A DNA stretch of 64,000 nt. Source: Branchiostoma floridae. Taxonomy: Eukaryota; Chordata; Leptocardii; Amphioxiformes; Branchiostomatidae. The notes under the pieces were generated by a model. It made no database searches, had not been told where the DNA came from, and saw only the letters and a program-made list of their open reading frames with translations. A program made the translations under genes and the position numbers. The stretch covers positions 16,097,418 to 16,161,417 of the forward strand of contig NC_049984.1 in assembly GCF_000003815.2 (NCBI RefSeq), read 5' to 3'. This document shows, in pieces, positions 5,097 through 64,000 of the stretch (position 1 is its first letter; each line of letters opens with the position of its first letter).

Positions 5097-5648
5097 TGTA
5101 CACACAGGTACGGACATCGATACAACAGTTTGCATGGCAAATACGTCACGGGTCGCCCCGAGCAGCTGGATATATACAGCTATAGTATACAGGTCTAACG
5201 TTACATTGACGTGTATGTGCACTGTTGTCATAGCCAATTGTTGCGCTGTTATTTCTGGCATGTGAGAACTTCGGGCGCAGTCACTTAGCACTGAACTGGG
5301 TCGCCGCAGGCAGCTCAAAGCGTCCGACAGCACAGAACGGTGGGCAGCCACTCATAAAGTAAGGCGAGTTCACTGGTGCAGATCTAAAGTGAACTCCTTT
5401 TGTTGACGAGCCTCCTATTTGCCTTGGCTGCAGCTATTCTATGGCTGCACGGTAGCCCCTTGCAGAACCGGTTTCAGACCTGTGTATAGAACGATTAGTC
5501 TGTAAACGACAAGACAGGACAGCCGTCGGACAAGTGGCCTGTTGACACAAACCGAAGCAGACAAAACAGTCAAGTCAAACTGGTGTGAAAGGCGTTTAGT
5601 TCCAGTTTGGCTGAACACTCGGGCGTCCACTTAACCCTCACAGCACGA

Positions 5649-8600
5649 ATGGCGACGGAGACGAAGAAGAAGAAGGCAAAGCAAGCGGCCCTTCCCTCGG
5701 GCTACCGGGTGGTCGTACTCGGGGACGGCGGCGTCGGTAAGTCGTCCCTCATACGGCGGTTCGTCATGGGGTCGTTCGAGGAGGACCTGAAACCGACGCT
5801 AGACGATATCTACCTGCACCCGCTGTACATGGACGGGCGCCAAAGCAGAATGGAGATCGTAGACACGGGAGGGACTCACACGTTCCCCTCGCTGAGACGA
5901 CTGGAGATCTCACGGGCACACGCACTCGTCCTGGTCTACTCCGCCAGCAGTCTCAAATCATTCATTCGTGTCACAGGTAAATAACAAACTATCTTTATCA
6001 ATTATTTGCACGTTCTTCTCGACACGGGCTAATTGCAGTAGTAATGCTATTACTGTACACGAAAGAGTAACGGTAAACTATCGTCACTAATGTTATAAAG
6101 TATTACACTGAACGAAACACGTAGCACGTAGAGCTATACTATCATTAAATACTCTAGTATATAGTCTACAAGTCGTTATTCGTGTCACAGGTAAATAACA
6201 AACGATCGTTACTTTTTTTCACGTACGGTCTCACCCACATGGGCTAATAACAGTAGTTATAATATTACATGAAAGATTTAAGGTAAAATATCATTATCGA
6301 TTCAATGCTGTTAGTGCACAATTGAAGGAACTAAACACGTAAAGCTATATATACTACCATTAGATATATAGTGTAAAGTCTGTAAACATATAAGGTTACC
6401 TGTAAGCTACCGCTAAATCTATAGTTATCATGTTATCACCTAATGTATCGTTTAGACATATCTTCCCTCTTATCTTTGATACGTTATAATCATGTACGCC
6501 TACCATAAATGTTTTATGGCATTTTCTTATTCTTAGTGCAAATGAAAACTTCACTAACATAATTTATTTATGTCGATGAAATTATTGTGGCAACTGTTTG
6601 AAATAATCTGTTTCTTTCGGCTTCATAGTGAGTACACCGACTGATAAAATGTATTTCATTTTCCACTGAATTCATTGAACAACATATACATAATCTCTCG
6701 TGTTCAGGGAGCTAACTAAACTACGTTTTTACAAGCCCAAAAATGTCGTACCTAAGTACCTAAAAATTCTGCCACGCCCCCCAAATCGCTGCGTTTCTGT
6801 GGGACCCCAACAATAACTATTCACATGCCAAATTTCATACACATCAATCAACAGGATCTTGCGTAATACTGGCGCAAACATAAACATAAACATAACCAAA
6901 CATAACGTCATTCGGGGGCAAAACTCATTCCCCGAGCTAAAAATAAGTTTTTTTATCACGAGTAATCACACTGTAATTGATTTGGTGGGTAGTGTTTTCA
7001 AAACATTTCATTTGTTTGGTAAGATTATATTATTTCAACAAAGAGGACTTCGTCTGGGATTTTACTAAATCCTCTTGGAAGATCGACACACAATTTTCTT
7101 TGTTGAAAGTGTGAGGTTATTGAGCCGAGGCATCTTTAAGATTTGCCTTGACCTGATAAATATTAACGCCTTTGTCTTAAATATCGCTTAAATCCCACTT
7201 AAATCTCGTTCATCACATCTGTTACTTGATACTTCAAGCATAAACACATCACGCATGAACGATCTGTTCGGTGATAGCCGTGAAAATATTTTGGTTATTT
7301 AAACAGTGGCACTGAAGCCGTCACTGACAGTCTTGGGAGAGTTGCGTTGAATCGGTAGATACAGATTCTATTGTCTACTATCGACCTAGATAAAAACCAA
7401 TGCAACTTAAGTCAAACTGTACATTGAATGCACAATCACGCCAGTGGGCACAAAAGTATCACATCATCAATGCAACCGTTGTACATATGTATAGTGCTTT
7501 GTAAAACAGGGACCATTGTACATGTCTACTGACAGAAAAAAAAATCATCTTTACGTCCACTCTATCTCTAAAACACATCAATGTTATCAATATCAACATC
7601 AATATACAAAACGTAAGAAAATTCGTTCTTTATCTCTGAGATTTGTTGCATATTTTTCGAACCCTGCAGTGCCGCACCGGTGCCCCATGTGCAGTGAGAT
7701 ACCACCTTTAGACATCGCTCAACTTGACCAAACAAAATCGTGCCTCGCAGCAACGGATGGGTTTATAGCTTCTGTCTAAATGGTTTATGGTATTTGCATT
7801 CACTGAATGTGGATAGTGGTCCCATCTGTGCTCTTTTATCTCAGGTCAAACAGAAACCACCTGCTACTCGCGTATTTACACACAAAACAGGTGTATTCGG
7901 GGGTTAGATGTAAAGAGAGGGATTGCGTCAATGTAAACCTATCGGAACTTTTTTTTTTGGTGTGTCTGGATACATGACTGTGTTCTTTCGATTTTGGATT
8001 GTGTGTCCTATTTGAATACACGGTTGGTACTAAAGTGAGGAAGTGAGTGGGATGATGGTGTCAACGTAAAGGTCAGACTTGAGGTAGTAACAGGACAGAG
8101 GTGGAGTTCAGAGGTAGTAGAACTAGTTGTTAATCAGACATTATAGGTATAAATTCCAGGTCATGGGGTCAATGGACGAGGCTACTAATTCACGGGGGTA
8201 TTTTCCGTGAGCTAATCGTATTCAAGGAGTGATTAGTGGACACATGTCATGTTAATCAAAACCTTGTTTGCATAACTAATGAACTGCAATCAAATACTGT
8301 AACTGCAGAAATGTTCGCGGTGGATTAATGTTCGCGGTTTTCGCGGTGACCACTTCACCGCGAACTTAAAACCACCGCGAATATTTTTCTATAATGGTAT
8401 TAGACTGCAATCTATGGTGTTACCGCGAAATTAAAACCACCGCGAAAAGTCATTTTCCCGCTACCGCGAAATTAAATCCCCGCGAACTTAAATGCATTTA
8501 CAGTAACACATACGGGGAACCTTTTCACGAGATCATTATGCAAAATTTTATGACGTCATGATGACAGTATCATATCAAAAATTATAGGGCCACGCCAATT

Positions 8601-9019
8601 TTTATAAGTTACTCCCCCTCCTTAAGTTGTCTTTTGTCTTGTCTACAGATATCATGGACTCCATCTCGGCCGTGGGAGGTGGGGTACACAACACGCCCAT
8701 CATCATCGTCGGGAACAAGTTCGACACGGAGTCGGAAGAATCGCGCCAGGTCCCCGTGGACCAAGGCTTCCAGCTCGCGCGCCTCTGGAACTGCAGATTC
8801 ATGGAGGGCTCCGTCAAAAGTTGCACCAACGTCGACGTCGTCTTCGAGAAGCTGATCGACCAGGAGAAACGCTGGCTGGTGACGCTTTCCAAGACGTCAA
8901 AGATTGACGCCTTCAGGTCCAAGGTGCGGAAGGCGTTCGAGGAGAACACGCAGATTCTGCGGAGCCAGAGGCCGAGAGATCCGTGGAGAAAGGTTCCTCC
9001 CGTGGTCGTAGGAACTTGA
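5649..9019 (+). CDS. Di-Ras/RASD-like small GTPase without CAAX box
   Basis: Two exons, 5649-5976 and 8649-9019, join in phase 1 through an ACAG/gtaaat donor and a tctacag acceptor to give 232 residues. The G domain shows the P-loop GDGGVGKSS, switch-I Thr in KPTLDDIY, switch II DTGGTHTFPSLRRL, G4 GNKFD and a G5-like SVK. The DTxGxHxFPxxRRLxI pattern is characteristic of the Di-Ras/Dexras branch, in which the usual catalytic Gln after DxxG is absent; here that position is Thr. The protein ends PPVVVGT with no CAAX motif, so prenylation is not expected; a basic C-terminal stretch could contact membrane. The ATG at 5649 is followed by a Lys-rich leader (TETKKKKAK). Expected role is a signalling GTPase with low intrinsic hydrolysis. 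The orthologue is not assigned; a RERG-like or lineage-specific Ras remains possible. Confidence 0.85.
5963..6330 (+). repeat. Tandem duplication covering the exon-1 splice donor
   Basis: The block ATTCGTGTCACAGGTAAATA at 5963 recurs at about 6179, and sequence after each copy (GGGCTAAT..CAGTAGT, AACACGTA) is also similar. The unit is about 216 bases. The intron therefore starts with a second, apparently usable donor site; use of it would add in-frame stops. Confidence 0.75.
7605..7745 (+). repeat. Interspersed repeat (GTAAGAAAATTCGTTCTTTA family), intronic copy
   Basis: The stretch starting near CGTAAGAAAATTCGTTCTTT and continuing through CCGCACCGGTGCCCC recurs inverted at about 9790-10040 and again near 59455-59580. 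It is a low-copy dispersed repeat within the intron of the Ras-like gene, with no coding potential. Confidence 0.6.
8295..8505. mobile_element. MITE with TACTGTAAATGCA-type ends, copy 1
   Basis: It starts TACTGTAACTGCAG and ends AATGCATTTACAGTA, with inner repeats of CCGCGAAATTAAAACCACCG type that fold on themselves. A second copy lies at 16203-16426. This one sits 140 bases upstream of the second exon of the Ras-like gene. Confidence 0.85.
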
Positions 9020-23245: not shown

Positions 23246-26200
23246 GTAAGAAAATATTCTTTCCAGTTGAATGTTCATAAGAAAAAGAAAGCCATGGTTT
23301 TGATGGTACTTGTGCTTTTTATTATTATATAGATCTATCTTTAACTTGAAATGACCAAGATTGTCGTTGAATGATTTTAAAGAAGTTAAACCATTGTCTT
23401 GTCAAAGATTTGTGTTTCAGTTGAATGCAAGTCTATCGTAGTAGGATAGTAATCTACTGTTAAAGGAAAATAGAATTTATTCAGATGTAGTGCTGACAAC
23501 CATAACAATTTAGATGTTGAAACAAAAAGCGTATGTTTCATGTGTATCTTAGCTCACATGCATATAGCATTGCAAAACATGTACATGTTCTTTGTGTTGG
23601 ATGTTTTGTCATAGGGTGCTGCACCTACAACTCCAGAAATGCTTGGGTCCTTCCGAGTGCCAAAGACAGTCCCCAAAAGGAAGGCACAGTCCCCTGCTGT
23701 ACTTACACATGGCCGCCCTACACAAGGAGGGGCCTCTTCCATAGGCAGTAGTGAAACCACACCTCCGAGTTCGAGACGAAGGCCGCAAACCCGAAGTCAA
23801 GGTCGGCATGTCACAAACCCTGGGTCAAGGTCATCAACGCGTCCTTACACGACCCAGAAAGATGTGGGCATCCAATCAGGCGAGTCGTCACTGGAATCAG
23901 ACACAGACACAGAAATGGGATTCCTAGACGAAACGAGGAAGACCATGGTAAAGGGAAAGGCGTCAGAAAAAGACGTATGTAACCATGTCAAGGACAACTG
24001 CAGTGAAAATCCCAAGCAAAGTGCACCAGTGCAATCCCCTGCTAGGTCTACCAAGTCTCTCGGATCTAAGAATCAAGACCAAAATGGCGTTGGTAAAAAA
24101 GTAAGTAGCACAGACACAGCAGAAGAGCATGTGGAAGACCATCCTCTAGACTTGACCCTGAAATTTGTCCAAACTGGTTTTGCTAATGAAGTCGATCTAC
24201 AAGAAGTGAGCCAAAATGAACATCAGCTTGGAGTCCAAACTCTTGATGGGAAGTTGACCTCAAAAGATAACACAACTAACAACAGTAAAGCAGACAAACA
24301 GCCAGAGGATGGGGCCCAAGAACCTTCCAATGAGCAAGTTACTGTTGATGAACAGAAAGAAGTACTTCAGCAAAATGCACAGTTTGGTGATGAAGAAAAT
24401 GTGAGAGAGGAGCCCAGCAAGCATTCTTCTCAGGATGAAACAGACATGGACGCATCCATACAGCAAGGTCAGAAAGATGCTGAAAGTGCCAAAGTAGTAG
24501 ATAATGATCCTATGGTAGTTACTAAAGCTGGAGCTGGTGCCATGGAGGATGGGTTTCTACCAACACTTCTTGCAGTATCTTCAAGGGATGCATATGAAGA
24601 CATGTCGTCAGGACACTCTGTGCAATCAACTGAAGATAGTGTCCTTTCAAAAGAGACCGGAGAGGAAACTCCAGACATACATGGTTTGGTAGAAGACACT
24701 TTATCACCTAAAAAAATCTTTGAAGAGTCTCCCAAGTCTCCCAAGCCAATGGAGGATAGCAGTGGACAGTCTCCAGATAAGGTGTTAGTTGAGGGTGATC
24801 CCTGTAGTGTTGAGGGGACAGAGATAGCTGATGTCCAAACAGATGAGCAAGAGATAAAGGATACCTTTGAAGACAAACTGACTGATGTAGATGTTGCAAC
24901 CATGTCACCCAAGCCAGTAGAAGATAGCATGGTACAGTCTCAAGATAATGTGTCTGTTGAGGATCAACTTAGTCTTGAGAAGAAAGAGATAGCTGATGTC
25001 TCTACAGATGAGCAAGAGAAAAAGGATACCCTTGCAGACAAACTGACTGATGTAGATGTTGCAGCAATGTCTCCCAAGCCAGTAGAGGATAGCATTGCAC
25101 GGTCACCAGTTGAGGATCATCTTAGTCTTGAGAAGAAAGAGATAGCTGATGTCCCAACAGATAAGCAAGAGATAAAAGATCCCTTTGAAGACAAACTGAC
25201 TGATGTAGATGTTGCAACAATGTCTCCCAAGCCAGTGGAATATAGCATGGTACAGTCTCATGATGATGTATCAGTTGAGGATCATCTTAGCCTTGAAAAG
25301 AAAGAGGTAGCTGATGTCTCAACAGATGAGCAAGAGAAAAAGGATCCCTTCCCAGACAAACTAACTGATATACATGAAGACACTCCAGTCAAGTGTCCTG
25401 ACCCAGTTAAGAACAACATTGTCCAGTCTCATGATAATGTATCAGATGAGAGTCATCATAGTGCTGAGAAGAAAAAGATAGCCCTTACAGATGAGCAAGA
25501 GATGAAGGGTCCTATTGTAGAGAGACTGACAGATGAAGATGGTACTACCACGTCTCCTAAGCCAGTGGAGGATGAAAGCATACAGGTGATACAAGATGAT
25601 AGTTCAATTAAGACCTCAGAGGATGAACAAGATTTGTCCTCAACTGACCCATCTAATCAGACAGAGGAAAAAGACTCTGATGTCAAGATTGATGACTTAA
25701 CCAATTATCAGTACAAAAACACAACAGCAAGTCAGTCAGAAGATAAGACAATGCCAACGGAAGGGAAGGTCACTGATCCAACACTGACAGAGCCTTCCGT
25801 CTTAGAAGACGAAGTTCAGATGTCAGAACTGTTGCAATCACCTAAGAAACCAGAGCCACCATGTAACAGGTCAGCCATAGATGACACAACTGTGCTCCAG
25901 GTAGAAGAAGATGCTCCATTGACTGATGGAATGGAGAAGGAAGAGAATGATCTTGAAGAGACTAACGTGTCACACACTTCTCAACGTACCAGCATCACTC
26001 CCTCTCCTGAAGAAAAAGAAAATAAGCAAGTGAAAGATGTATCTGATCATATTGTCTCAAGTGAGCCTGGGAGTGTGGATAATGATCCAAGCATCTCACC
26101 TCCCAGCCCCATTAGAGAACAGCTACATGAGAAGAGCACCCTAAAGATAGCTCCGAATGACAGTACTGCTTGGGTCTTAAAGGAATTTGAGGATCTGGAA

Positions 26201-29200
26201 TGTTCACCGGAGATTCCGACTGTCTCTAAAACTTTCAACACAAAAGACGCATCCCAAGACTTGTCACAGCGGTCGTGCGATGTTCCCAGCTCAGAGAACG
26301 AGAGAGAGAAAGAGACGATACCCTCAAGCCAGGGATCAAACAGAGAATTTGACAGTGGAGAATCTTCTGACGACCACATGGGAATTCTGAGACTCAGCCC
26401 AAGTGGAAGGAATGGTGACAATTCCTCACAGTCACAGAGTGATGTTGAAAATGAGGACGTGGAAACGCCACTGAGTCAGAACTCGACATATAGTGACTTC
26501 GGCTTGTCAGGAGTAGTACCGTTTGTGGCATCTCCAACTGAGAGTCAGGAAGACAGCAGGGAAGCTTTATACAGTAAAGTCGTTGCAGAGATACAAGCAA
26601 ATGAAGAGAACACAGCAATGCCTACACACTTTGGAACACAAAATGGAGATGCTAAGGACAACAACAGTACAACAGGCTTCAAGAAGTCAGTGACTTGGGA
26701 CATAACAGACTCTTGTTTGGACACAGACGATCAGGAAGATGACGACCCAAGCAGGGATGATTTGGATGACGACTTCAGCGACAGGGACTCGAGATTCATT
26801 ATCTCAGACTCCATCGACTACAGAGCTGAAGATAACAACTATCCCAGTGAGAGTGAAAGCTCCAGTTCCGATGAAGAGGAACCCAGCAACACACCCATAG
26901 AAGGGGTTGGTCTAGGTTTACAAATGTCCGACAGTGAAGGGGAGGCTGAAGAAAGAAGGCACAGTAGTCAGTCTGTTTCACAACACAAGGAACATCCCAG
27001 TTGTGGTCATCAAGTAAAGAATCAAAGCAAAGACGTCAGTGATCCACAAGAAGAGAGCAATGAAGAAAAGATTGAAAACGAGATATCAGAGCCTACAGAT
27101 AACGAGGATTCACCATCAGGCAACTTCCCAGAGACAAGCACACAACAAACTAAAACTGAAGAGGAGAAGAACAAAGTCCTCCCACTTGAAGAGATATCTC
27201 CTGTTGATGCACGTTTGTCTCAAGTTTTGCAAACTCAAGTAACGGGGACTGGAAAGCTTCCAAACATGAAAGAAGATGAAGAAGATGTTGTCAAGGTCAC
27301 AGAATCCAACCCACGGGTGGTGACATCAGGGATCTCCATGGTGATCGAGAGTTCAAGTTCACACGAGCAGCAGAATCAAGACAGGGATAATGACAATGAA
27401 CGTGACATTTCAAATCCTCATATCAATCAGGAAGAGGCTTCTAATTCATCTCTTGAGGAGTCTGGGTCAAAGGGACAGCTTAACACTGAATCTGATCAGA
27501 GTGCCAATGGGAAACTGTTGTGTGCAGATAATGTCAATACACACAACCATGTTGAAGAGAAAAACACTGCCATAGATGATCAGCCATGTGTAGTTGGAAC
27601 TGAAGCCATGTCAGGTTCAAAAAGGCCACATGACGAGAACGATACAGTACTGCCACAGAACAAGAGATTACTCCTGGATGCACAGCTGGAAGAGAAAGAT
27701 AATACTGAGGTTGAAGGGTTTACGTCAATGGATGTCACATCTGAAGGGTGTGAAAATGTTGCTGAGGATTTGCCATGTGCCACAGAAGACAGCTTTGAAG
27801 TGCAATGTGACATACCTGAAGTTGTAGACACTGCACATTTGAAGCAGATGTCTTTGCCACTCATTTTGGTGAAAAGTAGAGCAGACTGTGTGAGAGACGT
27901 GGTCTTAGATTTCTTCGCTCACCGTTTCTTTGTCAACAAGATATCCTCAAAGTTGGACAAGATAGCAGAAGACGCCAGAAAGCAGAAAGTAGCAGAGGAA
28001 GTGAAGAAGTTCTTTGCAAGCGATGCTTGGAAAGAACAGCCCAAAACTACACCTATGGAGGACTCTGTTGAACCTGTATCAGAAATGGCATCATCAGATA
28101 GCAACTCAAGTGCCAAAAAGAGGGACGATTTCACTCATAAGGAAAGTTCAAGTCTTGAGGTGGACAAGAGGAAAGTTATTGAACACGCCGTGTATGAATT
28201 CTTCAGGAAGAAGAACTTTGCAGCAAAGAAAAAGGAAGACTTGGGAACGGAAGTAACTGCACCTAGTGTGACAGAAGATAAAGTGCAGACAATGCCAAAC
28301 AAGAGGCGTAACAGCGAAGAACAAATGCTAGAAAATGCACCAGAGGCGAAGAGACATAGGCTTCAGGAGGTATTAAAAGATCTTGATGGTCCAAGCAGTG
28401 AAGGTACACTAAAAGTACATGAAATAACACCACAGGGACCACAGCAGCCTGACGTGTGTAGGGAATCTATTGGAGATAATAGAGAAGAAGTAAACAGCAG
28501 TCAGAAGTATATCTCTTCATCAGAAAACCAAGATTGTAAGACCTTTGCTGATATCCAGGAAGACAACAAGGAGCATGAGGTCGAAGCCAACCAAGACAAA
28601 CAAAATCCAACACCTGAACGAGATCAAAAGGACAAGAACAGAGAAGAAATAAGTTGTGAAACATCCAATACAAATGACAAATACAATACAAATACAAAAG
28701 ACGACAAAGAGACAGATACACCTGAAGAGATGAATGTAGCCATGGAAAGAGAAACCAGTGACAAAGATGGATATAAACTTGAGACCTCTACAGAAGAGAT
28801 GGACATACATGTTGAACCAGAACAGCATAATGACAAAGAAATTACAGTAGATGCAAAGGAAGTGCATATGGAGATATGTTTGTCAACAGGAAGTGACTCA
28901 AAGGATTTAGACAATGTAGAAGTAGACTCTGAAGATAAAGAAAGTAATAGCCTTTCCTTAGTGTCACTTTCAGCTAAAGAAAATATCATGCCATTGGAAG
29001 AAAGTATTGAGGAAAGTCCTGCACAAGCCAGTGAGGACGAAGTGTTGGCTACTAAGAATCTGTCACAAGATGATTTCTCAGAGAATGGTCCCTTGACAAC
29101 TACAGATGCTGTAAACAATAAGGACTGTAGTGAAATCATGCTTGACACTGCTAGTAGTACTCACTCTCCCATTGAGATAAAAGAAGTGCAATGTCAGGAT

Positions 29201-29608
29201 TTGGCTGAAGTAGACAACAAAGTTGACAATGATGTGTTGCAGTCAGATTTATCATCAACTGAGGAAGTAAGGCTTGAAAAGCCATCTAGTATCTTACCGT
29301 CAGACAATGGTACAGTCCCTCCCAGTCAAAGTAAAGAGCCAGGTCAGAATTCTCAAGAAGATGTAGTACCAGAAGTGTGCAATGATATTACTGTGCAAGA
29401 CGACAGTGGTAGTGGTACTGATGTCAACTCTGACTCATCTCTCCCCTCGCCGGAACGTTATTCTGACTCGGAATCTGACAAGGATTCTAACTACTCAGAC
29501 AACGACAGGTTTCTGTCCTCTAACTCTATGGAGTATGGAGCTGAGTACTACAGTGAGGAAGATGGCGATGAGAGTGATCAAGATGATGAGGGCAATAATA
29601 GCAGTGAA

Positions 29609-29642
<34 letters not shown>

Positions 29643-32600
29643 CAAGCAGTGAACATGATGATGATGATGAAGATGGCTGCTCCAGTACCCCAAAGTCACC
29701 ACCAACAAGTAGCACTGCAGAAAAGACCAACATTGCATCAAAGGGTTGCCCTGATACTGAACAGAATTTGGAGCCATCCAAGGCTGGAATGTCTGGTGAA
29801 TTAGACTATGCAAATGAAGTTGTTATTGAGGAGACAGAAAAGCAAAGTAACGAGGCGGCCCTGCAGGGTCTGAGCTGCGACTTTGATGATGATGATGAGT
29901 TCAGCGCACCACACATCAACATTGATGACATTGACTTTGATGATGACAATTTTGGTGATGACAGCATCCCATCAATGGAGACCAGCTCCAGTCTGCACTC
30001 TCCTATAACTAGTGTAGGAAAAGCTATATCAGCTCAAGAAAAGGCAAATAAGGCAGCTGTGCAGGCATCAGAAATTAAGACAAGTAAGAACGTCACAAAC
30101 GTAGCACTAACTGAGGACAACCTTGGACTTGGAACAAGCCGAGAAAGTGCAAAAGACACAGTAACAAAACCTCCAGCTTTCAAGTCAACAAGCCTATCGT
30201 CTAGCAAGGAGACAGCAGACACAACCCCAGGTGTGGGGAAGGGTAAGGAAAACTCAGGAACGACTGAAGAAACCCCTGGGGTGCTGTCAACTAATGCTGG
30301 AAGGACAAGACGCCGCCTGGTGGATACTCCAGGTATTGCAGCTCGTGTTCTGAGTATTATTATAGCAAAAATGTTGGCATAGTACAATGTATGCGAACAT
30401 GCTCATGTTATGTACAGAAAAGCATCTAGGAAAAGATTTGTCAAGTAGATATATATTGATATAAACATTATCGTTTGAGTAAGATTCAAAAGATCGGAAA
30501 AACTTGTTTTCTCTTCCATCATTGTTGAAAGATACTGCTAAAAGGTTGCTTATATATATTAACATCAAAATGTTATTAACTGCAGTTAAAGGGAAACCCA
30601 TGATAAATCTTTTAGGTTTTACTCATTTCATGATTTTTTGTATTGTGTGCATATAATAAACAATAAACAATTTTTTTGCTACAGGAAAGGTGACCACAGA
30701 CAATGCACCCAGATACATGGAGCAGTGCCAAACCATCCTGGCCAGTCTACAGGGAGCACTGGACAGGGAGCCCAGCTTAAAGGACATATCCAGGGTGCAG
30801 GCATGGAAGTAAGAATCTTGATTAAAACATCACTTAAGTATCACATACACGAGTATGCTGGAGCACTATTATGTAAGTGCCACCCTGAAAAAAATGTGTC
30901 GAGGTATCTCCAATGCAACGTCCTCGTTTGATACACTCCTGCGTATCTAAACTGTGCATACCTACATGTACATGAAGGTTGTGCTTCTCTATGTTTTTCA
31001 AAGTGGTGGATATACATAAGTTATGTATCCTGGTGGATACTGTAAAACTTAAAATATTTGCATTTATTTTGTGTCAGGGTTAGACAAGTTTTCAAAAATT
31101 CCTATCGTCCTATCGGGGAGTAAATTAAAAATTTACTTGCCCGAACCAAATTTTCACTTGCCCGAAATTTAAATTACATTTTTCTATGTGTTTTCACTTT
31201 CATAAATTTTCACTTTTGTTAAGAGACCACGTCTAGCGAAATAATAGACGTTAAAAGAGGACAACAACAACAAAATCTATGTCTCTACTGGCTTAAAAAT
31301 GACATGGTCAATATAGGCAGGCATTCAGCCCCATGTGCTGTCACACTCAGTGGTAATTTGAGCGGGTCACATCTGGAAATTCTGACTTGCCCGTCGGGCA
31401 AGTGGGGAAGCACTTCTGCTTGCCCGAACAGCACTTTTACTTGGCCGGGACAATCGGGCTAATGGACTTGTTTATCCCTGCATGTTTTTTTGCGGTGATC
31501 TCTGGAATTCATGACAATGTATGTATTCCAATCATATTACTACTGTACAACTTAACTATGAAAATATGCAACTTAAAAAACGCTGCAAAAACACTGTTAT
31601 CCCTCAAACCAGTACCACCAAATAATGCCACTGCAAAAGTAAATGAGTTTACAGTAAATGTTAATGGAGCTATACTCTAACAGGAAGGAGGCTGCTAAGC
31701 TGGGTGAAAAGATGTCCCTCCCGGAGACCATCATCGCGGTGGTTGGCGACACGGGCGCGGGAAAGAGCAGCCTGATGAACGCCCTGCTGGACCAGTCCTC
31801 CGTCCTCCCCACCTCCGGCATGCGCGCCTGCACCGCTGTCGTGGTCGAGGTCTCCAACAACGACAAGAACAAAAACTACGAGGCTGAGGTCGAGTTTTTG
31901 TCCAGGAAGGTTAGTTGTGGGCATCTGTTTCCAAGTTTCATTTGTTTGAATATATCGTAACTATTCGTTCTTAGTCTAATAAGAGAAAAATCAAACAGAA
32001 GCATGCCGTTTATCTAATTGTAGTTACAGGCACAAGAAGACCTAAGCTAGGTGTACAATTTCTTACAACTGAAGAGATACCAACTTGCTATTCCGGCATA
32101 ATTGTAATGAACTAATAACAAACAAACTATTACTGCCAGTGACATTGGTGTATAATTATTCAAATGTATGTATGAATGTGGGATTCAACACCTGTTAATA
32201 GATGATAGTCTATTTTCTGTCTCCAGTTAGAAACCACCATTCTGCATCTTGAACTTGTTTCTTGAATTTGCAGTCCTCTCCTGTAGCATATATCATAGTG
32301 TGTACTAAAAAATTGAATTTTTGGTATCCTTTTGGTGACATTTAAGTGCAACATTTTGTACAAGTTTGAATTAATTAAAATCCACAAGTAACTTGACAAT
32401 GTAAAGTTTAGTTAATGAAAGTTAGACATCCTGGTAATAAGATTTGCAAGATTCTCAATGTACATTCTCAATGATTCCTGTCAAGTTGATAAAGGTGGGA
32501 TTTAGTTTCTATTTATCAAAACTACATTGTACCTTTCTGTAGGAATGGCATGATGAGCTCTGCCTGCTCCTTACTGACTTGATAGGAGATCTGTAATGTC

Positions 32601-45397: not shown

Positions 45398-46675
45398 TTA
45401 ACTTGTAGCTATTGTTGCATTTTACAGTAACCATTAAGGTAGTAGTTTAAGCTTTGTTCAAAATCTAACTTTGTTTTAGTTTCTGATGTTATTGTTACCA
45501 GTTGCCTAACCTTAAAAAATGTCACCTGTGCTTGGTCTCATGATGGTGCTCAGCACATTCCAAGGTATGCAATAGATTGCTTCAGTTAAAATGAAAATTA
45601 AGATGGAATAAGATTGGACAACACACTCATTTATCAGAAGTTATTTTTGCAAAGCCTATTAGTAAGTAATGTAAGTCTGCAGGGATGTTCAGTTTGAAAT
45701 TCCTATGTTCAGCATTAAAACTGGTTGTTTTCACTCGATACACTGCTTCACATTTTCAATTACTTGACTCCTGTCAGAATTTTCTTCATAACTTGCCTTT
45801 TGATCCTTTATTTGGTGCTTGTGGCATGAGACAATATCCTTAAACCTCTGCTCAGCTTGTTAATTTGAGTTCAACTGCCCTTTTATTTAGTTTCACTGTT
45901 TGTGGTGTATGGTATTTTCCTGTCTACTCATCACACTAAGCATCACACTCATCTTCAATGCAAATCTGGAGTTACCCTCTTGACAGTGAACCAAAATTTT
46001 TAAGCACTAAGAGAAATATTCTGCTGCTATATTTGTCATTATCCCCAGATCAATGAAATATTTTTTTCAATTAAGATGTTTGATAACCTTAAATGTCTTG
46101 GTTATGGTACTACATACATATGTGTAATTATATGATCTGGCTTTTCCAAAGACTGACCAGGTACGAAAATATTTCTCTGTATTCATACTGAGGTAGACAT
46201 TTCATGACAATGTTATTTGATAACTACATCTACAATACTTTCAATAGAAAGCTTATTCAATATTACTTGGCATGCAACACTATAGTGTTGTTACAGATGT
46301 CAAAATGGTAGTCTGTTGCATAATCAGTATACATTTGTTATGGCCATGGCCAACAAAACTCACACCTGATAATTCAACATTATTAGATGCTACGGTAAAC
46401 ATATTGATGGCCCAGTTCAACAGCATTTTTACAAACTGATGATAATGAGTACTGCCCTTCTTTCTGTTTGTTTAACAAATTTCCCTTTTGTTGTATTAGC
46501 TACCAAACCGCTGATAGGATAATTGTCTGCATGACCCAAAAGTGACTTTGTATGGGCCAGACATGAATATTAAAAAAAAATTAACACAATTTAAATACAG
46601 TACACATGGCTTGACTTGACTTGACATGTACAAGGTTCAAATGTATGCATATCTAATCTCTGCCATACACATACA

Positions 46676-46765
46676 TAAATACTTTGGTCCTACCAGAAAT
46701 CCCCCTGCTGTACTATTTGGGTATTCAACTAAACACACATTTTGTGGAATTCATTCTGCAATTTT
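46676..46765 (-). pseudogene. Relic of a duplicated serine-protease exon
   Basis: On the minus strand PNSTAGGFLVGPKYL is readable, matching PNGTATGFLVGPRHV of the intact protease (about 47508-47580). Flanking bases (GGTCCTACCAGAAATCC, ACACACA..TTCATTCT) also align at DNA level. Stops and a small insertion break the upstream part. It lies just 3' of the intact gene, so it is a remnant of tandem duplication. Confidence 0.8.
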
Positions 46766-46866: not shown

Positions 46867-47800
46867 TTATTCAAAATCCATCATCTGAGGTGGAAAAATA
46901 TCACTAATCCATGTGTCATTACCATGGGACATCCTTACATGCTCTCTAATGCTAGTCATCAGCACACCCTGTTCTACAATACTTGGAGAGTTTACATAGG
47001 GAAAGAAACCCCTGGTGTGCATAACCACAAGATTCCCACTCTTGTCAAACCCAGGGGAGCCAGAGGACCCATGAAACATACGAGAAGTGTGATAGTTTGC
47101 CCGACCAACTACTTGTTGAGGAAAGTCTTGTGGATTGTCCGGAATTCCTCTGACATCCCGTACATGGATCTCAAAGTTGTTGTCAACAACAGCAATGGGG
47201 CAGAAGTCAACTCGTTTTCTTTGGCCACCTGGATGGCCAACAACAATTACTATTCCATCCTGGTGACATAGCTCTGACACAAACTGACCCAAGGGTTCTG
47301 CATTTGGTGGTGCATGTTCAAGTTCAAGTATGGCATAGTCCAGTTCTGCATCCCAAGAAAGATAGTTTGTTGGGTTGAATCGTGTACAGAAATTTTGCAT
47401 TGAGGAAAAGTGGAAAGTTGCTATGTATCTGTTTAGTTGATTGTTTGTCCTCAAAGCAGGTTCAACATACAGCTCAAGGAAATGGTGATTGGTCATGACA
47501 TGTCTTGGTCCTACCAGAAATCCTGTTGCTGTACCATTTGGACATTGTAACAAACACACAGACTTCATTCTCTCTGTGATTGTGGGGAAGTCTTCGTAGT
47601 CAATGCTGTAGTCTATGACACTGGAGAAGTGTTGTACTCTGCGGGACAGTTGGTCGTGGAATTCTCTCACCCTCTGTCTTCGTTGCGCCTCGTCTCTTGT
47701 GTCCCTGCTTGGAATGAAGCTTATCCCTGGGTACTTCTTCTGGACCAAGGCTGTTGCTTGTTGAAGTTGCAGAGTATCTATTGAATTTCCTAGATGTAGC
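46867..47800 (-). CDS. Serine protease exon with intact catalytic triad
   Basis: The exon encodes residues about 1249-1559. A helical lead-in (RRQRVREFHDQLSRRVQHF) precedes a chymotrypsin-like fold: TGFLVGPRHVMTNHHF (catalytic His about 1355), ELDYAILEL (Asp about 1403), VVGHPGG, and FHGSSGSPGFDKSGNLVVMH (Ser about 1495 in GxSG). The three motifs are in the usual order and spacing. The GSSGSP..F form with GNLVxxH resembles FAM111-type and bacterial V8/Trypsin_2 proteases more than digestive trypsins. No signal peptide or disulfide pattern is evident, so an intracellular enzyme is likely. Substrate unknown. Confidence 0.85.
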
Positions 47801-50800
47801 CTACAGATTAAAGACAAACATAACTGTGAAATTCTCTTACTACTAAATGAACAATATCCCCCTGATGCCACAGTCAAATCTTACTGGATAACCAAAAACA
47901 AGCCTAAATGTCAAATAAGTTTGCCTAAACTCATGGAGTAGGGCATTTGTGTCAAGTCCTCCATCACCTGAAAGTACCCCTATTCTTACAGGAACAAGCA
48001 TATGCATTAATAGGGTCACTTTGATTTTGATTTTCTTAAATGTTCGGGTTTACAGAAAAGGGGCAAAAGTTTTCTGGCCTGGGTACCATCCAATTTCCAC
48101 CGGCCGGGGGCTCCTTGCACTCGCTTAGGGCAACACACTATGCATAAGCACCATTTGGTGGAGTGTGTCATATCTTTCCAAGGTTGGACATGCATTTATG
48201 AATTGATATTAAAAACTGCTAGTCTGAAGTTGTGAAAATTGGACTGAACTGAGCGAGTGAGTGATGCTTTAAATATGCACCTACCTGTCCATTTCTGACA
48301 CAAGATTGGGGGTCGTTTCACTTGCTAAGCCTTCAGGACATGCCACATTTTGTTTTTCTGCAAACATCAAGGTATGTGTCACAAGTTGGATTAAGAATGA
48401 CCTATAGTATATCTTTACTACCCTGTTAACTTATCTGGTTACATCTTTACCTTTATCAACATCATTATGATTTCAGGTATCAATAACTTTGTAGTTTAAC
48501 ACTCACCGGTGAGGTGAGGTGAGGTTAACACTTTCCCCATTCAGTCATATTCATTACACTTAATAAATACAAGAACATGTAGTTAGTAGTTGTTTGGAAA
48601 GTATAAGCTTAGGCTTTTCCCTCCATATTTGTAATTCAGGTACAACTGCAAGTAAATTTTAGACTTACTCAGACATGAATTGGGTGGGTAGACAAGCTCT
48701 GCTCTCACTTGTTGGACTGGAACTGTCATGGGATACTGGGGACATGGAATAGTCCTGTAAAAAGGTGCAGATTGGAACATTTTGAGACAAACTAAGCATT
48801 TCCACCACACCCAAGATTCTTAAATTCATGGTCAAATTCACTCAAAAATACTATTTAGCAACTTATACTTAATGAATACACAGTACTGCATGGACATGTA
48901 CTTACCAAACATCCTTCCCACATTGTTGCTCCAGAACTTCACCCGGGAAGAGACTTGGCAGATCTTTCCCCATCTTCACACAGTGTGCACACTGGAGGAA
49001 GGTGTCACACCTCAGTCCTGGCCATTCCTGGATGAGACTCCGCATGTCTCGATGAATGGAGAGGAATGTTGTCCACAGAAGTGTGATGTCCCTGGTGTGT
49101 CCAGGTTGTTGTTTGGTGACTGGTGCACGTACAGACAAGGTGAAAACCTCTTCTCTTCCACTTCCATCATCTGTCGTTGATCTTGTCAGTAAGATTTGCC
49201 TGCTGTCCACCACTGCCCACACACCATTCTTCCAGTTGACACGCTGAGCTATGTGTTGATGCAGTCTGACAGATGCCCTTTCAAACAGGCCTCTTGGACA
49301 GAAGGTTGGGAAGTGGTACTGCATGGTCAGCTGTTGGTAGTCATCTGGAGGAGGTTGAGGCCACATTTTGGACAGGTATTTGGGAGGGTCAGCAGACAGA
49401 TACCAGGGGATGTGCAGGCGATGGGAAGGTTGCAGACCAGGTGCTACTTTTGAGTCAAGAACTTCATAGCATATGTCAAACTTGATCATGAGCTTGATGA
49501 GGCTCTTTGTGTCTTCCTTGCTGAATCCAAGCTTGTGCCACAGACACTCGACTATTGCCACAGAAAGATTTGCAGTGCTTTCAAACTCCTGCACAGCCAT
49601 GGCAAAACTCTGTTTGGAGAACTGTCCTACTGTGGAAAACACCACATCGTTGAAGTCCAGTTGGTTCTTGATGTCATGGTTGACAATTGCTTTGAAGATA
49701 TCCACCAATTTGGCAGGACGATGGAAAATAAGGTTCTGAAGCTTTTCATCATCAGGGTACCATGTGATCAATCCCACAGCTTTGAGGTATTGAAGGGTTG
49801 TAAACAACCGATCACTTATCTCAGAAGAAAGGCCCATTGATTCACCTCTGGACTTCTCAGTCTCCAAGTAGTAAATTGTAGGTTGAGGGGCATTTGCATT
49901 ATTACCTTTGTTTTCTACCTGGATAGACGTATCTGTTTGAGCAGCAGCATTTGTTTCTTGCTCATAATCACAGCATGGCATAACTTTTACACAGCTATGT
50001 ACATCAGCAGTTACCTTTGGTTCTTCATGTAGTGTTGTGGTCATTTCTTCACTGCTATCACTATCCCCATTGAGGGAGCCACTGTCTGAATCATATTCAA
50101 AGTGCCCCATATGTTCAATTTGATTGAAGAGCTTTTTTGAGTGATCATTGTCTACTAGTAATTCACTGAAGAGTAGTTGCAGATCTTTCCAGGATATCCA
50201 ATGTTGGTTGTCATATTTCTCACTTTGAAGCATCTCATGAAGGTCAAACCAAATTTTTGGAATGTATCGCCCGTTTGACCCAACATGCTTGCACAGCTCA
50301 CGGATGTATGAACTCAAACTGTCTATGCCACTAAAATCAGATGAGCTAACTGTTCTTATTTCTACTGGACTGCCAGGCTCATGCAGAATGGGAAGATTTT
50401 CCAGCTGGCTTTGAAGGCATTTTCGTTGCTTTTGTCTTGCCCGCTCCGCCAAACATTCATTGCTATCATGTTCAATCATTTCAAGCTGGGATGTGATATC
50501 TGCTCTCCATTTTACCTCATCCTCCCCAACTCTTTTAGCAATATACTGCAGCTTCACTTTAATTTCTTCAGGAGAACATTTATCTTTGTGAGTTCCTACC
50601 ATACGTATGTTGGCTCTTGGGACCTTCATTCGGACAACGTCCATCCAAGACCCCATATGTTTATGATGGTCTTGAGGTGTGTAGTTGTTGATATCAAAGA
50701 TAAGCAAGTAAGTTGCATCGGGAGTAAAGAAGCAAGGACTTGTCAGATGGTACATCTCATGGCCTCCAAAGTCATTGATCTGTATTTCTATCCCTCCTTC

Positions 50801-52492
50801 CGCTGGCCATGCCTGCTGTTCCAAAACAACTGTACGCTGCTCAACTCTTGTGAGCTGTGAACTGTTTGCCATTAAAGTCTGTGCTAGGCTTGTCTTTCCT
50901 GACATGGTTTCTCCCACCAAAACTAGCCTTTGATAGTTCATCTTTTGTGCATCAGACCTTCTAAGCTCCTTCAGATGAGTATGAATTCTATACATGCCTT
51001 GTAAGCACACGTCTATTGGAGGATGGATCAGAGGATTTCCTTCTAAAAGCAGTTTTGAGGCTGACTTTCTTAAAGCTTTAATTCGATCAAAAGTTACAGG
51101 TAAGCATGATATATTGTTTCCTTGCAGGTCAAAGTGCTCCACCTTCACAAGATTCCCAATGTTTAGAGGGAGATGGTGTATCATATTGTTTGCTATGTTT
51201 ATATAGGTGAGTTCAGTACATCTACAGACGGAAGGTGGCAAGACTTTCAACTTATTTGATGATGCATTAAATTTCTCCAGATGGCTCAAGTTCCCAATAG
51301 AATCTGGAATCATTTCCAGTTTGTTGTGGTCTATCTGCAATATTGTCAGTCTTAAACAGTCCCCAATGCTTTGTGGTAGTATCCTTAAATCATTATGAGA
51401 CAGCGCTAGTTGCCTCATAGAAACCATATCACTTATGTTGTTTGGTAATGTGCCAATATCATTGCAATTCAAACAGACAACTTTTAATTTACAGCATCCA
51501 CAGATGAAGCTAGGAAAGTAACCAAGGCTATTATCATTACCATTACCATTTAAGTATAATCTAGTCACATGGTTCCAGGCTTTATCTGGCAAGTCATTGA
51601 GTGCTTGTTTGTTTCTTATGCATACCAACTGTGTGAAGTTACTGCTAAAGTTTGTTATGGAATCCAGACTATGTGTCCCATCCCTGATGCTATGTAATGT
51701 TTTCTGTACAAAATCTGACATGATTGCATCAGGGAGACCTTCATCCATCTCAAGTAGTGAACAGATATATTCCAGTGAAACATTGCCTAACATTGATTGA
51801 CCAAAATGAGTTACTCGATGTCTTGAATAGTGCATCTTCTGTAAAATGTGTTTTTTGAGAAATTGTAAATCTACAGTTTTTAATAGTATCTTTTTTACAT
51901 CTACCAGAAGAAAATATACTACCAACAATTCAAAAACGTGTTGACAAAGAGAACCAAAGGACACAAACATCATAGGCCTCCAAAACATACATGTACATGT
52001 AGGCATAGCTATCAAAAGTTCCTTCACCATGTCTTCAATGGACCTCAAATCATAAATACATTTGACATTACTGGATAGGTCCAAAATAAATTCATCCAAA
52101 TGTGACACCTCTTCTAGCAATAAGTCTTGTGGGGGATTGTTTAGCTCTAGTTTTTCTACACCAATCACAGTTATCAGCTGCCTGACTACTGTCTGAAGAA
52201 TGCTGTGCTGCACATTTGATTTTGACACAACTTTCATGCATTTTGGATTAGGTAGAGACACTTTCTGCAAAACGTTGGTGATGTCATCAGCTGTAGCATT
52301 GTTCATCAGTTTTCCCAGGATAACAGAAGAGGGAGGTTCTTTTGTATGTTGAATAATGAATACATCAGCCGAATACATCAGCTGTACCTTTGAGCCTTTA
52401 ACCAAAGCATGGAGCGATTCATTTTGCCTGATATATTGACAGGTTTCTAGTTGTAAGGTCACGGGTGCGTCTTCACTGGTGCCCTCCATCAT
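46867..52492 (-). CDS. Roco GTPase (LRR-Roc-COR) fused to a trypsin-like serine protease
   Basis: Exons on the minus strand: 52492-48906, 48754-48669, 48357-48285 and 47800-46867. All junctions have GT-AG ends and matching phases (2, 1, 2), giving 4,680 bases and 1,559 residues with one stop. Order: an unidentified N-terminal region (1 to about 310), leucine-rich repeats (about 315-470), Roc GTPase (P-loop at 527), COR (about 740-1130), a two-exon linker, and a serine protease (about 1330-1530). Roco proteins act as dimeric GTPase switches; MFHAS1, the closest vertebrate type, modulates Toll-like receptor signalling. A protease on the same chain suggests that nucleotide state gates proteolysis. 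An in-frame TAA just upstream supports the ATG at 52492, and an acceptor-like CTACAG near 52525 suggests a 5' non-coding exon. Confidence 0.8.
48285..48754 (-). CDS. Two short linker exons joining Roco to protease
   Basis: 48754-48669 encodes TIPCPQYPMTVPVQQVRAEL and VYPPNSCL; 48357-48285 encodes KQNVACPEGLASETTPNLVS and EMD. Both have clean acceptors and donors (CTGA/gtaagt, ACAG/gtaggt) and the only phases that keep frame on both sides. A Pro- and Ser/Thr-rich flexible linker is expected. Confidence 0.75.
48906..52492 (-). CDS. LRR-Roc-COR exon (MFHAS1-type Roco)
   Basis: This single exon encodes 1,195 residues. LRRs show the LxxLxLxxNxIxxLPxxI pattern (LKVVCLNCNDIGTLPNNI, LTILQIDHNKLEMIPDSI). 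The Roc domain has GETMSGKTS (527-535; DNA 50888-50914), the G3 motif DFGG (about 574-577) in NDFGGHEMYH, and THKD (about 634-637). COR begins near IPKIWFDLHEML and ends with FCPRGLFERASVRLHQHI and VNWKNGVWA, a signature of this family. An acidic insertion of about 90 residues (DSDSGSLNGDSDSSEEM onward) interrupts the COR N-half. No kinase domain follows, unlike LRRK. The N-terminal 300 residues have no domain I recognise. Confidence 0.9.
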
Positions 52493-61800: not shown

Positions 61801-64000
61801 AAATATGGTGACTTAAATGAAAAGAAAGTAGTTGGGAAAATGTATTTGAATTGTGAATCTACTTCCAAACGGTGATGTTTAATGTTGTGAGCTTTCTTAG
61901 TCTTAGGATAAGGGTTAAGGATAGTCCCACCTGCTCTCAATCTTGGTTTTTACTTTTTTCATGATTAGGCTTAATCAGCAATACTTGGTCAACTAAAAAG
62001 TTCATCCTTATTGGTATGAGTCATTCAAAGTTGAAGTTAATTTTCAACAAAAAAGAGTTGGACTTAACCAAACTGACGACTGTTTTCGACAATCGAGTGC
62101 TTTTGTGACGTCACATTATGCAAATGGCACACGTGACTTGGTGAACAGTAGATCATAAGTTGCAAAAAGTCTATGGCGCCCCCGTCTCTGTTGAGGAATG
62201 GCTCTAAAGCTCTGGTGTAGATGTTTTTTTTTTCTTCAAACAAAAAAGTCTGACTAGGTGTCCACAATTCTTACTTTGTCCAGTGAGACTGAGTGTCCAG
62301 GTGACTCTTTATATAACAATGAATGTTTGTGCTATAACAGAGCGCTACGGCCATAGGAGAGGTCAACGTCACTGACATCACTACCACCTGGCAAAGTTCC
62401 ACAGAGCTGATGACGACTGAAGATGTGACCTCCCACTACATCACCACGGTCAGTAGAGTTCTTTTGGACCGTTGTCAGCATCAATGTTGCTTTAATCATC
62501 ACAAATGATTTGTCCACCATTGAATGTTGGACAAATCATTTGTGATTGACTGTTATAATGATGATGATGATGATGATGATGATGAAAAACGTTATTTTAC
62601 ATCTCTTCCCTGATGGGGTCCAAAATACAGGCAAGAACATATTGTTAACCTGGCTTCAATCCCTCTGATATGATATGGCATGGGATATGGTACCTACAAA
62701 TATAAACCCTTATGAAATAGTTTACCAAATTGATCTTCTTCACGAAATGTAAAAAGAAACTGAAGCATGCATGTCGCAGTACAAAGAGATGATCATTGAC
62801 TTTATCTTTTGCAAGTACAGATGTACTTCAAAATTTCAGCCAACTATATAAAACCTAGCACTAATCATGACATCTTTACGATTAATTCACAGGTGAGCCC
62901 GACCCGCGGACATGGTATTCGAGATGGAACCACGTCTGCTAACGGAACCACGTCGGTTTCGGACGGAACCACGTCGGTTGCGGACGGAACCAAGTCCGTT
63001 TCGGACGGAACCACGTCAGTTGCGGACGGAATCACGTCGGTTGCGGACGAAACCACGTCAGCTATGGACGGAACCACGCCGGCTGCAGACGGAACCACGT
63101 CGGCTGCAGACGGAACCACGTCGGTTGCGGACGAAACCACGTCAGCTATGGACGGAACCACGGCGATTGCGGACGGAACCACGTCGGTTGCGGACGGAAC
63201 CACGTCGGTTGCGGACGGAACCACGTCGGTTGCGGACGGAAGAGCCATTTCGGTTATGGACGCCACCAAGCGAACCCCCACGAACATTGCAGGTTTGTCA
63301 TTACAAATCATATCCTGCTTCACGCTGCTGTGACTAAATGTATTCTTTATGTTCTTCACATTTAAGGCATTGTACAACAATACATTGTTTCTTCAGTTGC
63401 AGCTCACTCCCTTTCACACCTTTTTCTGAACACTAACATCAGATGAAAGATACATTTAAATGGATGGATGGATGGATGGATGGGTGGATGGATGGATGGA
63501 TGGATGGATGGATGGATGGATGGATGGATGGATGGATGGATGGATGGATGGATGGATGGATGGATGGATGGATGGATGGATGGATGGATGGATGGATGGA
63601 TGGATGGATGGATGGGTGGATGGATCGATATATGTATGTATGTATGGATGGATGGATGGATGGATGGATGGATGGGTGGATGGATGGATCGATAGATGGA
63701 TGGATGGATGGATGGATGGAACCATGTGTGCCAATTCGTCATCGAACCATGTGTGCCAAGTCTTATTTTCTGTTTTCTGCTACAGGAACATTTGGTGCAG
63801 ACAAGATCACATTCAGCGGAGAAGGGTTCAGGAAACTCGGCAAAGTACGGGAGGTTGTGGTCTCACCCGACAGTGAGATATGGGTTACCGACCTCACAAA
63901 GGCGCCGCTGCAGGTGTACAGCCCGGATGGCATCTACCTGTACCAGTTCCCACCTGAGATGCACGGGAAAACGGCGGCTGCAGTCTCCTTTGACGGAGAT
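58840..64000 (+). CDS. Single-pass membrane protein with Thr/Ser stalk and NHL-like propeller (3' end beyond window)
   Basis: Exons 58840-59002, 60331-60828, 61508-61662, 62341-62448, 62893-63292 and 63786 to the window end join in phases 1, 1, 0, 0, 1. The N-terminus [21 protein letters not shown] is followed by a 170-residue Pro/Gln/Gly-rich region and a TM segment ([20 protein letters not shown]) near 61552, preceded by Arg/Lys ([12 protein letters not shown]), which implies a type II topology. Outside lie [12 protein letters not shown], a 15-unit GTTSVAD stalk, then [20 protein letters not shown] and [24 protein letters not shown], the repeat pattern of NHL/TRIM-type beta-propellers. NPMY fits the NPxY class that binds PTB or endocytic adaptors. 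Probably a cell-surface receptor or adhesion protein; ligand unknown. It is truncated by the window, not by mutation. Confidence 0.75.
59455..59580 (+). repeat. GTAAGAAAATTCGTTCTTTA repeat, third copy
   Basis: Matches 7605-7745 (AGTAAGAAAATTCGTTCTTT, GTGAGATGCCAC..). It lies in the first intron of the NHL gene; a T-run (about 59626-59646) follows. Confidence 0.6.
59876..60200. mobile_element. Mariner-like MITE
   Basis: TATACGAGGGTGAGTCAGAA at the left and TTCTGATTCACCCTCGTATA at the right are inverted ends of about 26 bases beginning at TA. ACGAGGGTG..TCAnAAAGTAAT is typical of mariner-type termini. At 325 bases it cannot encode a transposase. Confidence 0.85.
62498..62546. repeat. Perfect 19-base hairpin
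   Basis: ATCACAAATGATTTGTCCA and TGGACAAATCATTTGTGAT are exact reverse complements around an 11-base loop, in the intron after exon 62341-62448. Confidence 0.9.
62558..62584. repeat. (ATG)n microsatellite
   Basis: About nine ATG units immediately after the hairpin. Confidence 0.9.
62926..63240 (+). repeat. Coding 21-base minisatellite (GTTSVAD)n
   Basis: Fifteen units of GGAACCACGTCGGTTGCGGA type, all 21 bases except the first (18), encode [21 protein letters not shown] and similar. The frame is kept throughout, with substitutions at few codons. All three forward frames and one reverse frame stay open because of the repeat, so overlapping ORFs there are shadows. Confidence 0.95.
63460..63720. 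repeat. (GGAT)n tetranucleotide array
   Basis: About 260 bases of GGAT/ATGG repeat with short interruptions (GGGT, and a TATGTATG patch near 63630), in the intron about 65 bases before exon 63786. Long MDGW and SIHP ORFs here are artefacts. Confidence 0.95.

Follow-up and report, generated by a model that had tools for sequence, protein, structure and literature searches.

This locus raises the question whether a Roco GTPase and a serine protease, which follow each other on the minus strand, are encoded by a single gene and, if so, what kind of protein that gene would make. It lies in a 64-kb stretch of Branchiostoma floridae DNA, which is called the window here.

Structure and domains of the predicted gene

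Scripted splicing of four minus-strand exons, extending from 52492 to 46867 with the stop codon included, yielded one frame of 1,559 residues without an internal stop. The introns have GT-AG ends and the phases are 2/1/2, and the exon number, splice ends, phases and frame length of the first-pass annotation were thus reproduced. Exon 1 (48906..52492, 3,587 bases) encodes LRRs, a Roc GTPase domain, COR-A and COR-B, preceded by an N-terminal region that matches nothing in Pfam. Exon 2 (48669..48754, 86 bases) encodes the end of the Roco part (IPCPQ...AELVYPP) and ends in phase 1, exon 3 (48285..48357) is a linker of 73 bases that leads from phase 1 to phase 2 and contains the methionine M1247, and exon 4 (46867..47800) contains the whole FAM111-type serine protease module (Trypsin_2) and the stop codon. 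The donors of exons 1, 2 and 3 read TTG|GTAAGT, TGA|GTAAGT and CAG|GTAGGT, and the acceptors of introns 1, 2 and 3 read TTTTTACAG|G, GTTTGCAG|A and AATCTGTAG|G, with the ends TACAG, TGCAG and TGTAG. Judged from the sequence alone, exon 1 may contain a further T-rich, in-frame GT-AG intron of 90 bases (51901..51990, minus strand), whose removal would result in five exons and 1,529 amino acids, 30 residues fewer. The first canonical poly(A) signals downstream are found at 45807..45887 of the same strand, with AATAAA starting at 45887 and 45812. The last ATTAAA before them is at 50563, inside exon 1, and neither AATAAA nor ATTAAA occurs between 50563 and 45887.

In the Pfam analysis, each domain of the encoded protein was judged against its curated cut-off, and all were above it. 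The LRRs matched LRR_8/LRR_14, and they are followed by Roc (residues 522-637, E 3.4e-12), COR-A (residues 897-1013, E 2.4e-9), COR-B (residues 1053-1211, E 1.4e-11) and Trypsin_2 (residues 1340-1507, E 9.3e-13). These E-values imply that the matches did not arise by chance, and, together with the splice sites, the domain scores exclude a chance open frame. The succession of Roc and COR identifies the protein as a Roco. An alignment of the Roc domain with 11 paralogs showed that the GTPase motifs are intact (GETMSGKTS 527, DFGGHE 574, THKD 634), and GTP binding and nucleotide-dependent dimerisation are predicted from these motifs.

The junction of exons 1 and 2 was compared with lancelet paralogs that have no intron at this position. 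The uninterrupted frames of four paralogs (L009, L010, L012, L034), and in part that of L011/L033, align across the junction and into the residues of exon 2. For a wider comparison, the best 80 of 485 bacterial relatives of lancelet Roc domains were scanned, 76 of which have sufficiently long tails. In the consensus of these 76 bacterial tails, COR-B ends as in the window gene, with the pattern C..C ... I.C. This cysteine pattern, which is common to the 76 bacterial Rocos and the lancelet paralogs, possibly binds a metal. Directly after the motif, a donor-like site in phase 1 was found by eye in four of five paralogs (L009, L010, L012, L033), which the phase-1 end of exon 2 resembles; in L034, the donor-like site at the same motif is in phase 0, unlike that of exon 2.

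The protease module contains the motifs TNHHF 1352, ELDYAILE 1401 and GSSGSPG 1493. A putative catalytic triad of H1355, D1403 and S1495 was assigned from an alignment with FAM111A and from the motifs of trypsin. With these motifs intact and all Pfam domains above their cut-offs, the order of LRR, Roc, COR and a protease with His, Asp and Ser, which had been read from the sequence in the first-pass annotation, was borne out. Among solved structures, human FAM111A was the best relative of the protease, with two chains matched at E 1.7e-13 and 4.8e-13, followed by a 'possible membrane-associated serine protease' (E 0.0015). With its Trypsin_2 domain, its His, Asp and Ser motifs and FAM111A as its closest solved relative, the protease is of the FAM111 type. 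An ordinary secreted trypsin was rejected, as FAM111A is the best solved relative and the Pfam Trypsin match is below the cut-off. Comparison of exon 4 with the PADLOC defence models gave matches to RT-Protease_XI (E 8e-8), LmuA (E 5.3e-6) and Avs1b (E 7.7e-4). No homology was found between the N-terminal segment of the protease and the dimerisation helix of FAM111A, the alignment covering the barrel only. N-terminal helices appear only in an AlphaFold model of the lone protease, which was calculated from one sequence and has a confidence too low for use (pLDDT 35). UBL domains were not among the matches of the protein in the general Pfam scan.

A second copy of the protease exon is preserved as a decayed fragment (46676..46744, minus strand), which was detected by tblastn with residues 1328-1350 (56.5% identity, E 4.9e-4) and is located about 120 bases past the stop codon of the gene. 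A plasmid search with the protease led to matches in 8 of 72,556 records, with identities of 23.5 to 28.6%; the annotations displayed for these records contain no Roco (2 of the 8 records carry no annotation).

The window contains several further features. On the plus strand, an exon at 31658-31957 matches a GTPase of the Dynamin_N type (E 1.1e-8), and two exons at 5589-5981 and 8588-9016 each correspond to one half of the Ras family model, the former being counted also among the Roc matches of the genome. An open frame of 2,255 codons on the same strand (23615-30379) has no Pfam match at E 0.001, and a tandem repeat at 63437-64000 reads (WMDG)n in one frame.

Effector exons at other loci of the genome

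The assembly surveyed comprises 513 Mb in 431 contigs. The Roc repertoire is large, with at least 147 matches (150 scored of 370 candidates; ordinary small GTPases are included). Of 44 Roco regions with long frames, 24 distinct ones were searched by tblastn for exons that follow Roc in the same orientation. A GT4-conflict exon was found at no fewer than 12 of the 24 loci (L011/L033, L016, L030 and nine others), and a Death exon at at least 2 of them, with one additional weak case; both counts are lower bounds, because the downstream flanks differ in length. In the same search, with its varying flank lengths, a FAM111-type protease was found downstream of Roc at 0 of the 24 loci. A weak protease match in L024 (E 0.02) was dropped, since its frame resembles, by eye, a reverse transcriptase. 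Pfam confirmed GT4-conflict at all three loci tested (E 1.2e-74, 2.3e-83 and 6.2e-84) and Death at the one locus tested (E 1.5e-9). Genome-wide, 21 of 57 GT4-conflict matches have a Roc match on the same strand within 20 kb upstream, whereas an opposite-strand Roc within this distance upstream occurs in none of the 57. On the downstream side, 11 of the 57 have a Roc of the same strand within 20 kb, as expected of tandem clusters. By their position in the DNA, GT4, Death and the window protease look like interchangeable C-terminal effectors on LRR-Roc-COR.

Matches to the protease occur at 20 places in the genome, and a Roc match is nearby only at the window, so that the fusion was seen once (0 of 24 Roco loci with a protease, 1 of 20 protease places with Roc near). 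The proximity counts were based on 89 of the 147 Roc matches; the 58 omitted, which are mostly short or weak, include none within 300 kb of any protease place. NACHT receptors were rejected as partners of the protease exon, as 0 of 104 NACHT matches are closer than 1 Mb to any of the protease places.

Eight protease exons were read, that is, the one in the window and seven others of the 20 places (L115-L121). By eye, the open frame that runs to the stop codon starts at a phase-2 acceptor (AG|G or AG|A) in all eight. In L115 and L117, further upstream acceptors in other phases are also possible by eye, and the phase-2 rule is therefore not strict. At all six of the 12 GT4 loci for which the exon start could be read, the acceptor is in phase 1, with an alternative in L030, and this phase fits the phase-1 donor of the Rocos. 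Spliced directly to the phase-1 donor of a Roco, a phase-2 protease exon would be out of frame, and the 73 bases of exon 3 bring about the required change of phase.

On one contig (C18), GT4 exons are found at distances of 12 to 22 kb from four protease exons that have no Roc in their vicinity. Upstream of one of these four, a Death exon is present (PF00531, E 6.3e-11), which has a phase-2 donor-like site 261 bases before the protease exon; splicing from this site would keep the frame. Unspliced, the Death frame runs into an immediate stop. We regard this arrangement (L122:2314-2655 and L118) as a candidate Death-FAM111 gene within a cluster that also contains GT4 exons. Because exons of the GT4 and FAM111 types are present at Roco and Death loci, they seem to serve several types of sensor as alternative effectors. 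The first-pass annotation overlooked that the protease is of the FAM111 type and that the same slot is occupied by GT4-conflict or Death elsewhere in the genome.

One gene or two, and a possible mechanism

We judge it likely that the Roco and the protease form a single fused gene. The donor of exon 2 (TGA|GTAAGT) is strong, exon 3 is free of stops in the frame required by exon 2 and restores the phase, and other Roco loci carry effector exons in the corresponding place. If there were two adjacent genes, the Roco would end with exon 2 or later, and a separate FAM111-like protease gene would start at M1247. The last bases of exon 3 are ATG GAC AG|gt, with the ATG in frame, and a separate protease transcript is thus possible. 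The start context of M1247 is good, with G at -3 and +4, and the codon is in frame and close to where the conserved part of the protease module begins; by eye, L115 has a Met at nearly the same distance. Furthermore, 19 of the 20 protease places have no Roc nearby, read-through past the exon 1 donor meets an immediate stop, and false gene fusions have been documented in lancelet gene models (PMC4967905). However, only 311 bases between exon 2 and exon 3 would have to hold both a 3' end and a promoter, and there is no AATAAA or ATTAAA from the Roco to the protease. Less frequent variants of the signal, for example AGTAAA, are present there, and when 48668-47801 was shuffled, about 20% of the resulting sequences were likewise free of both AATAAA and ATTAAA. 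Taken together, two separate genes appear rather unlikely.

The splice chain and M1247 are each intact, as would be needed if the locus produced both forms, a fused sensor-protease as well as a free Roco and a free protease via an internal promoter or alternative splicing. We give this a low probability. A further reading has its precedent in PMC7159879, where the domains were judged catalytically inactive; the window protease keeps all three catalytic motifs, and we consider this reading quite improbable here.

Starting from a single fused gene, we lean slightly towards an intracellular LRR-Roc-COR sensor of MFHAS1-like layout, the effector slot of which has been filled by an exon-shuffled FAM111-type protease. 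A single transcript would join the sensor and the protease, a ligand would bind to the LRRs, and the nucleotide cycle of Roc-COR would shift the state between monomer and dimer. The dimerisation of Roco proteins is mediated mainly by RocCOR and is nucleotide-dependent (PMC6337361). Two protease domains would then pair and become active, and the cleavage of invader or host proteins would restrict the intruder or lead to cell death. Activation by pairing is proposed because FAM111A cleaves its substrates only as a dimer, which is formed via an N-terminal helix; its autocleavage is independent of dimerisation (PMC10920703). By analogy, the window protease is probably activated upon dimerisation of Roc-COR, and the gene may have a role in immunity. 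The first-pass annotation had proposed a nucleotide-switched protease, and this proposal gains from the one frame, the intact motifs and the evidence for a switch plus an effector in the family; that the junctions are transcribed is what we infer.

The protease FAM111A acts against viruses and in replication, and its original role is debated. A relative that is tied to a dimerising Roc-COR switch suggests that the ancestral job was that of an effector of an intracellular sensor, and the join of Roco and FAM111 suggests an activation mechanism for FAM111-type proteases that can be tested. More tentatively, and at somewhat less than even odds, lancelets may possess intracellular plug-in receptors, in which Roco or Death sensors are combined with shuffled effector exons (GT4 glycosyltransferase, FAM111 protease), each of which prefers an intron phase of its own, in parallel to the swapping of effectors in bacteria. 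If this is true, such an effector would have a relative in vertebrate FAM111A that has become free of its sensor, and the window gene would encode an animal protease switched by GTP, for which we found no described counterpart.

Comparison with known systems

Exon shuffling is reported to be unusually active in lancelets, with a bias towards 1-1 phased exons (PMC4284660), which the protease exon of the window does not fit. Human FAM111A and the window protease have GxSGSP, ELDYA and GHP stretches in common. Vertebrate FAM111 proteins contain two UBLs and, in some mammals, a PIP box, whereas the partner of the window protease is a Roco sensor (PMC9798293, PMC10920703). FAM111A-like proteins without UBLs have been reported from Branchiostoma belcheri and a coral (PMC9798293). 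MFHAS1 and other animal LRR-Roc-COR proteins have the same domain order as the window gene and no kinase, but MFHAS1 consists of LRR plus RocCOR only (PMC6337361), to which the window gene adds a protease.

Among the 76 bacterial tails, from the best 80 of 485 relatives, TIR_2 (20), TIR (14), CHAT (3) and ThsB_TIR (2) were matched most often, one protein possibly matching several, and EAD1, EAD7, Metallophos and Peptidase_C25 were matched once each. A trypsin family was matched by 0 of these 76 tails, and phmmer and a motif scan found none in 80 frames either. The bacterial precedent for a Roco with a trypsin is therefore the one in PMC8195603, which describes LRR-AP-GTPase-COR proteins with at least 24 C-terminal domains. 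Like the window gene, these conflict proteins combine LRR-Roc-COR with a variable C-terminal effector, and trypsin and GT4 are listed; they differ in being bacterial, and the accessible text names no FAM111-type protease in them. The second precedent is found in three brown-algal ROCOs (group 3) and some ROCOs of other SAR organisms, which have, like the window gene, a C-terminal peptidase domain (IPR009003) behind LRR-ROCO (PMC11378527). These proteins are from stramenopiles, and the likeness is at the level of IPR009003. The accessible text of that paper makes no statement on COR for the three and elsewhere calls LRR-ROC-COR the only layout in brown algae. Trypsin-type C-termini were thus in print for bacteria (PMC8195603) and brown algae (PMC11378527), and the view of the first-pass annotation that a Roc-COR-trypsin architecture was undescribed had to be given up.

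Animal ROCOs are reported to occur in as many as forty domain combinations (PMC11378527). In the literature searched, which covered a minority of the subscription papers and no list of these forty combinations, no Roco of an animal was found to carry a protease of the FAM111 or trypsin type. The window gene links the Rocos of animals to the effector-swapping Rocos of bacteria, and this link bears on the original function of the relatives of MFHAS1 and LRRK2. In summary, the layout itself has precedent, and what is new here is the animal version of the Roco-protease layout and its genomic setting.
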